Shown here: piece after piece, positions 4,530 to 46,497 of the stretch
Position numbering within the stretch: position 1 is the first letter of the stretch
Layout of the letters: the number at the start of each line of letters is the position of its first letter
Assembly (NCBI RefSeq): GCF_022385335.1
Contig: NZ_CP092431.1
Coordinates: 6,324,001 to 6,388,000 of the forward strand
DNA from: Streptomyces deccanensis
GTDB taxonomy: Bacteria; Actinomycetota; Actinomycetes; Streptomycetales; Streptomycetaceae
Direction: 5' to 3'
DNA: 64,000 bases
Position numbers and translations under genes: made by a program
The notes under the pieces: generated by a model
Told to the model about the DNA's origin: nothing
Seen by the model: only the letters and a program-made list of their open reading frames with translations
The model's database searches: none

Positions 4530-5519
4530 CTACAGCTTGCGCAGGCTGAGGCGGCGGACCTTGTGGTCGGCGCCCTTGCGGATGATGAGGGTGGCGCGGC
4601 CCCGGGTGGGGGCGATGTTCTCGATGAGGTTGGGCTTGTTGATGGTGCGCCAGAGCGTGCGGGCGTAGTCGAGGGCGTCGTCCTCGGAGACCTGAGTGTA
4701 CTTGCGGAAGTACGAGTCGGGGTTCTGGAACGCGGTCTGGCGGAGCTTCTTGAAGCGGTTGAGGTACCAGCGCTCGATGTCGTCGGCGCCGGCGTCGACG
4801 TACACGCTGAAGTCGAAGTAGTCGGCGAGACCGACGCGGGTGCGGCCGTCGCTGCCGGGGAGGGCGGGCTGCAGGACGTTCAGGCCCTCGACGATGAGGA
4901 TGTCGGGGCGGCGGACCGTCAGCTTCCGGTCGGGGACGATGTCGTAGATGAGGTGGGAGTAGACGGGGGCCGTCACCTCGTCCTTGCCGGCCTTGATGTC
5001 GGCGACGAAACGGGTCAGGGCCCGGCGGTCGTACGACTCGGGGAAGCCCTTGCGGGAGACCAGGCCGCGTTCCTGGAGGTCCTTCATGGGGAGCAGGAAG
5101 CCGTCGGTGGTGACCAGTTCGACGCGCGGGTGCTCGGGCCAGCGGGCCAGGAGGGCCTGGAGGAGGCGGGCGACGGTGGACTTGCCGACGGCGACGGACC
5201 CGGCGACGCCTATGACGAACGGGGTGCCGGACTGGGAGCCCTGCTCGCCCAGGAAGGTGTTCAGGGCGCCGCGCAGGCCGTCGGTGGCGCCCACGTAGAG
5301 GTTGAGGAGCCGGGACAGCGGCAGATAGATGTCCCGGACCTCGTCGAGGTCGATGACATCGCCCAGACCGCGCAGCTTCTCGACCTCCTCGGCGTTGAGC
5401 GGGAGCGGCGTCTTTTCGCGCAGCGCGCTCCACTCGGCACGGGTGAGGTCGACGTAGGGAGTCGCCTCCGGCCTGGGCCGGTGGGCGCTCCGCGGCAACG
5501 AGGAGACCGGTGAGATCAC
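4530..5519 (-). CDS. coaA: Pantothenate kinase, type I
   Basis: CoaA phosphorylates pantothenate with ATP, the first and usually rate-controlling step of coenzyme A synthesis. The 329-residue protein has the P-loop [12 protein letters not shown] near residue 105. [13 protein letters not shown] and [12 protein letters not shown] follow, and then [12 protein letters not shown] with its catalytic-region acidic residue and the C-terminal [17 protein letters not shown]. Length and motif order match the type I (bacterial PanK-I) enzymes of actinobacteria. The start at 5519 is the first in-frame start after the divergent intergenic region. Confidence 0.96.
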
Positions 5520-44347: not shown

Positions 44348-44634
44348 CGCTGCGCTCGCCTTGAGCGGGGTTCGGGGCTCGGTTGCCTGAGGGCGACCGG
44401 GCCCTTTCGCGTGCCCAAGTGGGCTGTTGGGGGCGTGAGTTGCGGGGGTGGGGGCGCGTGGTTGCGTTTGGGGCGAATGTGGGCCGAACGGGCGTAGCCG
44501 GGCGATAGCGTTCGTGTCCGGCGCCCAGCTTGGCTGGGAGCCCCCTTCCAAGGACACGATCCGGACCCCGCCCTCGGGGCCCGGCCCGATTCCGACGGAC
44601 CGTCCACCGGGCGGTGTCGTGGAAGGGGGCGCCC

Positions 44635-44730
44635 ATGGGACGTCACCGCAAGCCCACTCGCTGGGACCGGATCCGTCTGCGGATGGTGAAGTGCCGGAGG
44701 AGGTGGATCTTGCGGATTTACGGATGGTGA
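44635..44730 (+). CDS. 31-residue arginine-rich peptide ahead of the tandem hairpins
   Basis: ATG 44635 has GGAAGGGGG a few bases upstream. The peptide begins MGRHRKPTRWDRIRLRMVKC and continues RRRWILRIYGW; about a third of residues are Arg or Lys, with three Trp. The stop codon (44728-44730) overlaps the end of the first stem arm of hairpin copy 1, so translation would unfold it. It could be a real small basic peptide, possibly RNA-binding or membrane-active, or a leader peptide for the structures downstream. No homologue recognised. Confidence 0.5.
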   Translation: MGRHRKPTRWDRIRLRMVKCRRRWILRIYGW

Positions 44731-44812
44731 GCGGCCGCCCCCACGTCAGCTAGGGGCGGACACTCCGTGAACCATCCAGGAGCTCGTCGCAGACCCAACT
44801 GCGGCGGGCTCC
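44722..44812 (+). ncRNA. Two-hairpin structured element, copy 1
   Basis: Hairpin 1: GGATGGT (44722-44728) pairs with ACCATCC (44771-44777). Inside it CCGCCCC (44735-44741) pairs with GGGGCGG (44753-44759), closing an 11-base loop CACGTCAGCTA. Hairpin 2: GGAGC (44779-44783) pairs with GCTCC (44808-44812). Inside it CGCAG (44788-44792) pairs with CTGCG (44799-44803), closing the loop ACCCAA. ACTTTTCTTG follows, terminator-like on the plus strand. Strand and function are inferred. Confidence 0.6.
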
Positions 44813-44826
44813 ACTTTTCTTGTTGT

Positions 44827-44917
44827 GGATGGTGAGCGGCCGCCCCCAAACCAAGTAGGGGCGGACACTCCGTGAACCATCCAGGAGCTCGTCGCAGTGC
44901 TCGCTGCGGCGGGCTCC
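44827..44917 (+). ncRNA. Two-hairpin structured element, copy 2
   Basis: This is a second 91-nt copy, 105 bp downstream of the first. All four stems, the internal loops and the hairpin-to-hairpin linker are identical to copy 1. The ten differences lie only in the apical loops: CAAACCAAGTA in hairpin 1 (44847-44857) and TGCTCG in hairpin 2 (44898-44903). The pattern suggests selection on structure with loop sequences free or specifically diversified. Confidence 0.6.
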
Positions 44918-44996
44918 GCCTGTTTCCGTACGGTACCGGTGGAGGCGGGCGGCTGCCAGCGGCCCCAGAGGCCAGGGGTTTGCCGTGCGCCCCCTC

Positions 44997-46205
44997 TCAC
45001 AACCTGTGCGCCGCCCCCGTGGGCGTGGCCCCCCGGGTGTCCAGCAGCAGTTGCGCCTTCACCGACAGGCCCTGGAGGTCGTACGTGCGGTGCTGCTGGA
45101 GGAGGATCGTCAGATCGGCGTCGGCGGTGGCCTCGTAGAGGGAGTCGGCGCGGGGGATGGGGCGGTCGAGGACGCTCCAGGTGGGGATGTGCGGGTCGTG
45201 GTAGCTGACGTGGGCGCCGAGTTCGATGAGGCGGCGGGCGATCTCGTCGGCGGGGGTGCCCTCTTGGTCGGGGACGTCGGGCTTGTAGGTGATGCCGAGC
45301 AGGAGGACGCGGGCGCCCCGGGCCGACTTGCCGTGCTCGTTGAGGAGGGTGGCGGCGCGCTGGACGACGTACTGGGGCATGCGGTGGTTGACCCGCTGGG
45401 CCAGTTCGACCATGCGCAGTGAGCGGGGGGCGTGCCCTGCCAGGTCCTGGGGGAGGGCGTGGCCGCCGACGCCGGGGCCGGGGCGGAAGGCCTGGAAGCC
45501 GAAGGGCTTGGTCTCGGCGCAGCGGATGACGTCCCAGAGGTCGACGTTCAGGTCGTGGCAGAGGGCGGCCATCTCGTTGACCAGGGCGATGTTGACGTGG
45601 CGGTAGTTGGTCTCCAGGAGGTGGACCGTCTCCGCCTCGCGCAGGCCACGCGCGCGTACCACCTTGTCGGTGAGGCGGCCGTAGAAGGCGGCCGCCGATT
45701 CCGTGCAGGCGGGGGTGAGGCCGCCGATCACCTTGGGGATGTTGGCGGGGCCGTAGGCGCGGTTGCCCGGGTCCACGCGCGCGGGGGAGTAGGCGAGGTG
45801 GAAGTCGCGGCCGGCGCGTAGGCCGGAGCCCTCTTCGAGGAGGGGGCGCAGGAGGTCCCCGGTGGTGCCCGGCGGGACCGGGGACTCCAGGATGACCGTG
45901 GTGTGCGGGCGCAGCCGGGCGGCCAGGGTGCGGGCGGCCTCCTCGACCTGGGTGAGGTCGAGCGAGCCGTCGGCGCCGAGGGGGGTGGGCGCGCAGATGA
46001 CCGCCGTACGGACGCGGCCGAGTTCGGCTGGGCTGGTGGTGGGCTTGAAGCCGCGGGCCAGCATGCGGCGCAGTTCGCCGGGGGTGAGCGAGCCGGAGTC
46101 GGGCCCGGTGCGGTAACCGAGCGTGGCGATGCCGGCGGCGACGGCGGCCTGGGCCAGCGGCAGCCCCAACTGGCCGAGTCCGATCACGGCGAGATCTGCG
46201 GGCAT
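44997..46205 (-). CDS. Nucleotide-sugar dehydrogenase family protein lacking the catalytic cysteine
   Basis: The 402-residue product resembles UDP-ManNAc/UDP-glucose dehydrogenases: NAD loop LAVIGLGQLGLPLAQAAVAA, VICAPTPLGADGSLDLTQVE, ESPVPPGTTGDLL, LAYSPARVDPGN, ETNYRHVNIALVNEMA and the C-terminal GITYKPDVPDQEGTPADEI. The active-site loop reads RPGPGVGGHALPQDLAGHAP where the family has GGHC(L/I)P-D-P, so the catalytic Cys is Ala and the residues after it differ. It may bind sugar nucleotide without four-electron oxidation. ATG 46205 gives the normal N-terminus. Confidence 0.88.
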   Translation of the reverse strand: MPADLAVIGLGQLGLPLAQAAVAAGIATLGYRTGPDSGSLTPGELRRMLARGFKPTTSPAELGRVRTAVICAPTPLGADGSLDLTQVEEAARTLAARLRPHTTVILESPVPPGTTGDLLRPLLEEGSGLRAGRDFHLAYSPARVDPGNRAYGPANIPKVIGGLTPACTESAAAFYGRLTDKVVRARGLREAETVHLLETNYRHVNIALVNEMAALCHDLNVDLWDVIRCAETKPFGFQAFRPGPGVGGHALPQDLAGHAPRSLRMVELAQRVNHRMPQYVVQRAATLLNEHGKSARGARVLLLGITYKPDVPDQEGTPADEIARRLIELGAHVSYHDPHIPTWSVLDRPIPRADSLYEATADADLTILLQQHRTYDLQGLSVKAQLLLDTRGATPTGAAHRL

Positions 46206-46497
46206 GGCGGGGCCGTCCTTCCCAGTAACCGAAGCGGGACAGACGCGCAAGCCCGGTGGTCTGGATGAGCGAGCGCAATGTCACATTAGGCGGAAATATG
46301 ACCGATATGCGGGATTGGGAGAGTGTTTTTCTGTGCGCGTCCTGCGGAGTTATCCACAGGCTGGGGGCCGGTGGTGGCCGAACTCGGGCAACACGGTCAG
46401 AATTTTGGGCAGGGGATGCGAGAGCGACGAAAGAGCTGGGTCTCGCCTGACGGGCATGGACGGATGAGGCCGACGCGACGGACAGCGGGAGGCAGCG

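Follow-up and report, generated by a model that had tools for sequence, protein, structure and literature searches.

Organization of the locus

The window analyzed here, a stretch of 64,000 nucleotides from Streptomyces deccanensis (contig NZ_CP092431.1), contains a small peptide gene between guaB3 and a sugar-nucleotide dehydrogenase gene, and the end of this peptide gene overlaps the first of two tandem copies of a two-hairpin element. A repeat search of the window located the 91-nt copies at 44722-44812 and 44827-44917 (spacing 105, identity 89%). An earlier reading, made from the letters of the window alone (the sequence-only reading), described the two copies and missed the peptide gene, the Shine-Dalgarno (SD)-complementary 5′-untranslated region (5′UTR), and the minus-strand promoter. 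The features are listed below in window coordinates. The four hairpins were delimited by repeats, folding, alignment, and covariation, and both promoters are putative, each resting on a −10 box.

44506..44511, plus strand: putative −10 box TAGCGT of the peptide mRNA, starting 129 nt upstream of the ATG, outside the range counted across loci
44541..44549, plus strand: anti-SD stretch CCCCCTTCC in the 5′UTR, within an inverted repeat with 44620-44635
44621..44629, plus strand: SD sequence GGAAGGGGG of the peptide gene, complementary to 44541-44549
44635..44730, plus strand: 31-codon gene MGRHRKPTRWDRIRLRMVKCRRRWILRIYGW, whose stop codon falls within the outer stem of copy 1
44698..44709, no strand assigned: AGGAGGTGGATC inside the gene, conserved at the DNA level, with the Arg codons AGG AGG in 67 of 68 loci each
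44722..44777, no strand assigned: copy 1, hairpin 1, with the variable 7-nt loop 44744-44750
44779..44812, no strand assigned: copy 1, hairpin 2, with the loop 44793-44798
44827..44882, no strand assigned: copy 2, hairpin 1, with the variable 7-nt loop 44849-44855
44884..44917, no strand assigned: copy 2, hairpin 2, with the loop 44898-44903
44930..44935, minus strand: putative antisense −10 box TACCGT, with the transcript start expected near 44923
44953..44962, minus strand: upstream block of the putative antisense promoter, CGCTGGCA here, consensus CTGGTGGC in an alignment of 87 loci

All 10 differences between the two copies fell into the apical loops, as the sequence-only reading had claimed (5 of 11 bases in loop 1 and 5 of 6 in loop 2, none elsewhere). 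For 10 differences placed anywhere in the 91 positions, the chance that all land in the 17 loop positions is 3e-9. The two-hairpin fold was reproduced for both flanked copies, at −61.5 and −66.2 kcal/mol (z about −6). Rfam gave no match at or above the gathering score in the window, and the seven sub-threshold matches over 44350-45000 were all far under threshold. A riboswitch or another known RNA family, including ribozymes and sRNAs, was rejected on this ground, as was a tRNA-like element, of which none was found. In its own genome, the element of the window was the sole strong match (runner-up with E 0.14). Also, a dispersed repeat was rejected, because among the matches listed the strong ones occupied a single place per genome (best 10 candidates per genome scored). 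Cis-regulation of a downstream plus-strand gene was rejected because the next large gene is convergent. The product of the dehydrogenase gene (44997-46250, minus strand) matched all three family domains. The sequence-only reading had called it apparently inactive, which agrees with GGHALPQD in the window protein in place of what we take to be the family motif, GGHC with the catalytic cysteine.

Distribution and gene neighbourhood

A DNA search of 61 genomes (the own genome and 60 relatives) gave matches in 12 genomes at E ≤ 0.01, namely the own genome, seven genomes of the same genus at the same locus, and four weak matches (E 0.001-0.006). A covariance model built from 10 copies (threshold E ≤ 0.01) matched 92 of 392 Streptomyces genomes; homologues in other Streptomyces, on which the sequence-only reading had staked its case, were thus present. 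In a family sample, the model matched 15 of 200 genomes, 14 of the same genus and one with a weak 34-bit match elsewhere, and in an order sample 32 of 147, all of the same genus. From 88 loci, 128 copies with at least 53 bits each were kept after removal of lower-scoring copies and reverse-strand matches. Outside these loci are four genomes with matches under 40 bits only (G084, G135, G274, G327) and the second weak match of G201, and five duplicate loci were not used (L026, L047, L052, L098, L110).

A varying number of tandem copies had been proposed as a check and was found, with one to five copies per locus. One copy was present in 53 loci, two in 32, three in 2, and five in 1, which is an undercount since at least six single-copy loci carry a further degenerate or overlapping copy. 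Five-copy arrays with a period of about 103 nt were seen in L049 (G360) and L173 (G588). In long-period arrays (159-165 nt; L041, L044, L056, L079, L081), the putative minus promoter lies within the spacer, and in several of them the spacer also duplicates the 3′ portion of this gene's peptide-coding frame. In L070 (G207), one copy lacks the ACAC bulge and is now a nearly perfect palindrome.

The position between guaB3 and the dehydrogenase gene proved general: the convergent dehydrogenase gene followed the element on its 3′ side in 87 of 88 loci (exception L070, contig end), and guaB3 lay on its 5′ side in 86 of 88 (exceptions L096, with an insertion and a contig end, and L092). guaB3 itself was present in all 101 genomes of a sample that mixed carriers and non-carriers of the element. 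The element-less loci inspected had a short gap, another gene, or relics of the 5′UTR and the peptide gene. In seven loci (L148, L152, L157, L162, L163, L164, L171), the same gap spans 731-877 nt and, judged by eye, the peptide locus is apparently replaced by a different convergent gene, which probably encodes a membrane protein. An exact-pattern scan matched S. olindensis as the only named organism. In a published table, SCO4772 is labelled a transposase, and S. coelicolor may therefore differ at the guaB3 locus. The main texts of two transcriptome studies on S. coelicolor, checked for 4771-4773, did not name the locus, and a literature search for scr4770-scr4773 gave no match.

Covariation and strand

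In 120 aligned copies, 97.3% of the pair cells were standard. Double changes occurred in 102 cells; shuffles gave 21.4, none of 500 reaching the observed count, and the best slid version gave 23. As the alignment was fitted to the model, these counts lean towards the structure. Compensation was plain in the outer stem (GGATGG/CCATCC, GGAAAG/CTTTCC, and others), so the stems covary, as the sequence-only reading had required of them. Near-invariant across the 128 copies were AGCGG, the bulge ACAC (126 of 128 for each base), and the loop-closing TA (122 of 128).

The reverse strand of the window also folded well (z −5.3 and −4.3), and the strand is therefore not settled by folding alone. The sequence-only reading had favoured the plus strand, for which it cited the T-rich tract that in the window follows copy 1 only. 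This choice stood for the whole element (plus strand more stable in 100 of 128 copies) and for hairpin 2 (111 of 128), where pairing was also kept on the plus strand (233 G-U versus 44 A-C cells). It did not stand for hairpin 1, for which the minus strand was more stable in 86 of 128 copies as a whole hairpin and in 111 of 128 as a core. With these mixed stabilities, both strands therefore look constrained. The sequence following hairpin 2 had the consensus ACCTGT in 128 copies, and a U-tract as in intrinsic terminators was not found as a rule.

Peptide gene and putative promoters

In a tblastn search (E ≤ 0.1), the peptide matched 101 of 392 genomes; the weakest matches may be due to chance. 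In two genomes (G149, G027), the match was better than 1e-5 and the covariance model gave none; at both loci, parts of the system have been lost. The gene has 31 codons, and 38 in some genomes. Over 68 aligned loci, codons 2-13 had a pN/pS of 0.12, which argues that the gene encodes a small peptide under protein-level selection in these codons. In codons 14-27, pS was low (0.137 versus 0.340); together with the two AGG codons, this implies constraint on the 3′ half of the gene at the DNA or RNA level, too. AGG is a rare Arg codon in Streptomyces, and AGGAGGTGGATC is presumably nearly the complement of the 16S rRNA 3′ end. In L096 (G347), the element adjoins what resembles the end of a transposase, with the 5′ part of the gene on another contig; this locus seems to have been split at AGGAGG by an insertion.

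The peptide is very basic (12 K/R, 1 D/E, GRAVY −1.13), and its helical amphipathicity is unexceptional, 21% of shuffles being as high. A Pfam scan, for which a 31-aa query is short, gave no family, including Fst-like ones, at E ≤ 1. Five similar protein records were found (four of 31 aa and one of 48), and the four named ones are hypothetical proteins.

Upstream of the gene, 56 of 68 loci had a plus-strand TANNNT starting 135-147 nt before the ATG (3.2 in shuffles on average, at most 9), and 66 of 68 had an SD-complementary 7-mer in the 5′UTR (24.7 in shuffles on average, at most 33). On the minus strand, 74 of 87 loci carried TANNNT at a distance of 7-12 nt from hairpin 2 of their last copy, with 4-20 nt allowed and L070 being too short for the scan; shuffles averaged 3.7 and reached at most 10. 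The shuffle controls for these promoter counts leave shared ancestry in. After inner copies, the minus box was absent from short-period arrays (0 of 35) and present in long-period ones (5 of 5), whose repeat unit carries its own putative minus promoter. Thirteen loci had no minus box at first pass; by reading, eight of them (L040, L059, L093, L058, L063, L074, L044, L091) have degenerate repeat sequence followed by TANNNT. The middle bases of the box vary (TACCGT, TACCTT, TAACGT, TAGCGT), while T, A, and T are constant, as expected for the S. coelicolor TANNNT box, which according to a mapping study occurs at 80.4% of 3,570 mapped starts (PMC4895711). The upstream block CTGGTGGC differs from a standard −35 motif, and some loci carry a different block. 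The combined promoter pattern was found in 64 of 87 element loci versus 0 of 15 element-less ones, a weak control in which many loci hold unrelated DNA.

Loss patterns

The peptide gene was broken in 11 of 87 scored loci, of which 8 kept the minus −10 box. Among the 76 loci with an intact gene, the box was present in 66 at first pass and in 74 after addition of the eight loci read by hand; in the other two (L073, L055), the gene is intact and no minus TANNNT was found. The difference in retention (74 of 76 versus 8 of 11) gave a Fisher value of 0.013. Four loci were seen, by reading, to have lost hairpin 2 together with the putative minus promoter: the peptide gene is broken in L153 and L154, its promoter region and SD are lost in L179, and in L106 the SD is altered and the 5′UTR shortened. 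This is the loss pattern that a toxin-antitoxin pair would predict, though with these small numbers it is only suggestive.

Loop hypervariability

The loops varied more than the stems, as anticipated from the two copies of the window, and also more than the neighbouring DNA. The main comparison used all 33 genome pairs under 0.15 fourfold distance, unselected. Loop 1 differed at 118 of 231 positions (0.511; 0.416 with best-matching copies paired) and loop 2 at 57 of 183 (0.311), compared with 137 of 2,558 in the rest of the element (0.054) and 1,563 of 14,432 fourfold sites (0.108). In the 27 of 33 pairs with comparable genes, the upstream DNA differed at 417 of 4,039 positions (0.103) and the 5′UTR at 440 of 3,562 (0.124). 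When 3,741 pairs were sorted into bins according to the fourfold distance of their dehydrogenase genes, the loop-1 difference had reached 0.57 by a distance of 0.06 (5 pairs) and lay at 0.49-0.59 in every bin, with the core stem at 0-0.07.

These unselected pairs and bins agree with 15 pairs hand-picked from the 26 closest of 3,828 possible ones, in which some genomes recur. There, loop 1 differed at 47 of 105 positions, loop 2 at 22 of 85, the rest of the element at 56 of 1,159, the upstream DNA at 198 of 1,747, the 5′UTR at 129 of 1,453, and the downstream DNA at 206 of 966, the last being inflated where arrays differ. Without correction for relatedness, loop 1 compared with upstream plus 5′UTR gave p ~1e-18, and compared with downstream p 4e-7. 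Between the window and L037, 0 of 78 element positions outside the loops and 1 of 127 5′UTR positions changed. In the loops, 8 of 13 positions differed for copy 1; with copy 2 as the counterpart of L037, the figure would be 4 of 13 (p 6e-5 for this lower count).

The sequence-only reading had proposed that the loops may recognize different targets. On the plus strand, loop 1 is rich in A (43%) and poor in T (6%), with 96 distinct sequences among 126, and loop 2 is mostly U-R-S-C-C-N; the loops are therefore variable but not free. Loop inversion by template switching was ruled out, as the loops stay T-poor on the same strand. A U-turn (YUNR) in the minus-strand loop 1 was rejected, since 58 of 126 lies within the shuffle range of 31-62; on the plus strand the count was 0 of 126, under the shuffle range of 1-16. 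A second mini-ORF inside hairpin 1 (ATG/GTG to TAG across loop 1) was also rejected: its TAG is nearly invariant, which the stem explains as well, yet the frame is lost in L014. In its variable codon, stop codons were rarer than expected (5 versus an estimated ~16 among T-starting codons).

Discussion

With the peptide gene, the SD-complementary 5′UTR, and the minus promoter added, the presumed plus-strand RNA becomes a probable sense/antisense overlap. The element probably marks the region in which the mRNA of the peptide and an antisense RNA overlap, in a layout that resembles type I toxin-antitoxin loci of the Fst/par type. Convergent promoters, an SD that can be hidden, constraint on both strands, and variable loops would find their simplest account in a sense/antisense pair. 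We consider a convergent sense/antisense architecture likely, and whether the locus works as a type I toxin-antitoxin pair a close call that falls just short of even.

In the proposed mechanism, the plus unit would consist of a promoter, the SD-hiding 5′UTR, the gene for the 31-aa basic peptide, and the two-hairpin element as 3′UTR. The minus promoter beyond the last copy would yield a small antisense RNA running from the hairpin 2 end back towards the gene. This RNA may pair with the mRNA from the exposed loops and block or destroy it, while the SD-hiding 5′UTR would delay translation. The 3′-most hairpin of each strand (hairpin 2 on plus, hairpin 1 on minus) would probably aid termination, and tandem copies would lengthen the overlap. 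Both RNAs would be synthesized, and the peptide would be toxic.

Several observations stand against this reading. Type I toxins are usually hydrophobic, and the peptide, with a GRAVY of −1.13, does not look like a hydrophobic membrane toxin. That expectation is not strict, as a review also has a cytosolic class among type I toxins (PMC8309996). Against an antisense RNA, hairpin 2 has A-C mismatches on the minus strand and the whole element folds better on the plus strand. Also, some genomes have lost the 5′ part of the gene and kept the RNA element, and the AGGAGG conserved within the gene has no explanation in the sense/antisense model.

The main rival, which we regard as quite unlikely, is that the minus-strand RNA acts in trans and the peptide gene is a dispensable passenger. 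Such an RNA would be compact, with two hairpins and a short AGGU/ACCU closing stem, and could bind SD sequences through its 3′ GAUCCACCUCCUCC stretch, which we take to resemble the 16S rRNA 3′ end. The DNA-level conservation of AGGAGGTGGATC would fit. Of the five loci without the 5′ part of the gene, four (L010, L034, L076, L096) keep at least AGGTGG and the element, and the minus −10 box is retained in three of the four. In L015, the minus RNA folds with the AGGU/ACCU closing stem. However, the fifth locus, L062, has lost both the motif and the box, the retention in L096 may be recent given the seeming split by an insertion, and the two-copy RNA of the window folds differently from that of L015. 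Protein-level selection on the N-terminal codons, the conserved SD-complementary 5′UTR, and the hairpin 2 pairing, kept on the plus and not on the minus strand, also speak against this rival. An improbable account is likewise that of a structured 3′UTR and bidirectional terminator, in which termination or mRNA stability would preserve the stems while the loops drift. The position between convergent units, the greater stability of the last hairpin on each strand, and the covarying stems with free loops are what it predicts. It is at odds with the ACAC bulge (126 of 128 for each base), AGCGG, and the linker being more conserved than termination should need, with loops that outpace neighbouring intergenic DNA in change, and with the terminator hairpin that guaB3, by eye, seems to have upstream, and it leaves the minus promoter just outside the element unexplained.

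The variability of the loops may have its own origin. Possibly, though we would not call it probable, it is mainly mutational, with loops of DNA hairpins cut, miscopied, or reshuffled among tandem copies and no selection for diversity; because this account is limited to the loops, it can hold beside any other reading. Close genomes differ in whole loops with nearly identical flanks, copies of the same genome differ by a mean of 3.07 of 7 loop-1 bases versus 4.06 for all pairs, the L088 loop GGAGAAA recurs in the second copy of L074, and pairing of best-matching copies lowers the loop-1 divergence from 0.51 to 0.42. Reshuffling leaves the remaining 0.42 unexplained, however, and the strand-asymmetric composition (T 6%, A 43%) suggests selection on RNA. 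More doubtful is that the antisense overlap has been amplified in tandem, with pairing loops under diversifying selection or loop-targeted mutation, such that each copy would carry its own recognition code on fixed stems.

Fst/par is the closest known system that we found, and membership is not claimed for the Streptomyces locus. This RNA I-RNA II system of Gram-positive bacteria is reported to have convergent promoters, an SD-hiding stem-loop, and direct repeats (PMC7472228). The likeness extends to an overlap hairpin read on both strands and to peptide size, 33 aa for Fst (PMC7472228) versus 31. Unlike the Streptomyces peptide, to which no sequence relation was seen, Fst is membrane-associated; par shares an intrinsic terminator, whose U-tract is not evident in Streptomyces, and the Streptomyces repeat is the whole 91-nt two-hairpin unit in 1-5 copies with hypervariable loops. 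In ColE1 RNA I/RNA II, antisense hairpins with conserved stems have 7-nt loops that set specificity, but they serve plasmid copy-number control and not a chromosomal peptide locus. The 6C sRNA is likewise a two-hairpin actinobacterial RNA, but is absent from the Rfam matches of the window. In txpA/ratA of Bacillus subtilis, the antisense antitoxin overlaps the 3′ end of the toxin mRNA, and we know of no tandem repeats of the overlap there or in bsrG/SR4. An overlap at the same end is described for B. subtilis bsrG/SR4 in a review (PMC8309996). The toxins of both pairs differ from the Streptomyces peptide in being hydrophobic. The antisense layout of aapA1/IsoA1 from Helicobacter pylori differs from that of the Streptomyces locus. 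A 30-aa peptide with cationic ends and a cis-encoded antisense RNA are shared features, as given in the same review (PMC8309996), but the AapA1 peptide has a membrane-spanning helix. Among Streptomyces type I toxin-antitoxin literature, the titles and abstract beginnings of a part of it mentioned no such locus.

Streptomyces is the source of many clinical antibiotics, and if the antisense RNA is real, the genus would have a common sense/antisense peptide locus, present in 92 of 392 genomes sampled. The element is also a rare measured case in which RNA stems are frozen while the loops turn over faster than nearby DNA and synonymous sites. The natural arrays of 1-5 copies make loop diversification directly testable and, if the tandem-loop reading is true, they would provide orthogonal kissing loops that occur in nature as a set and evolve fast.
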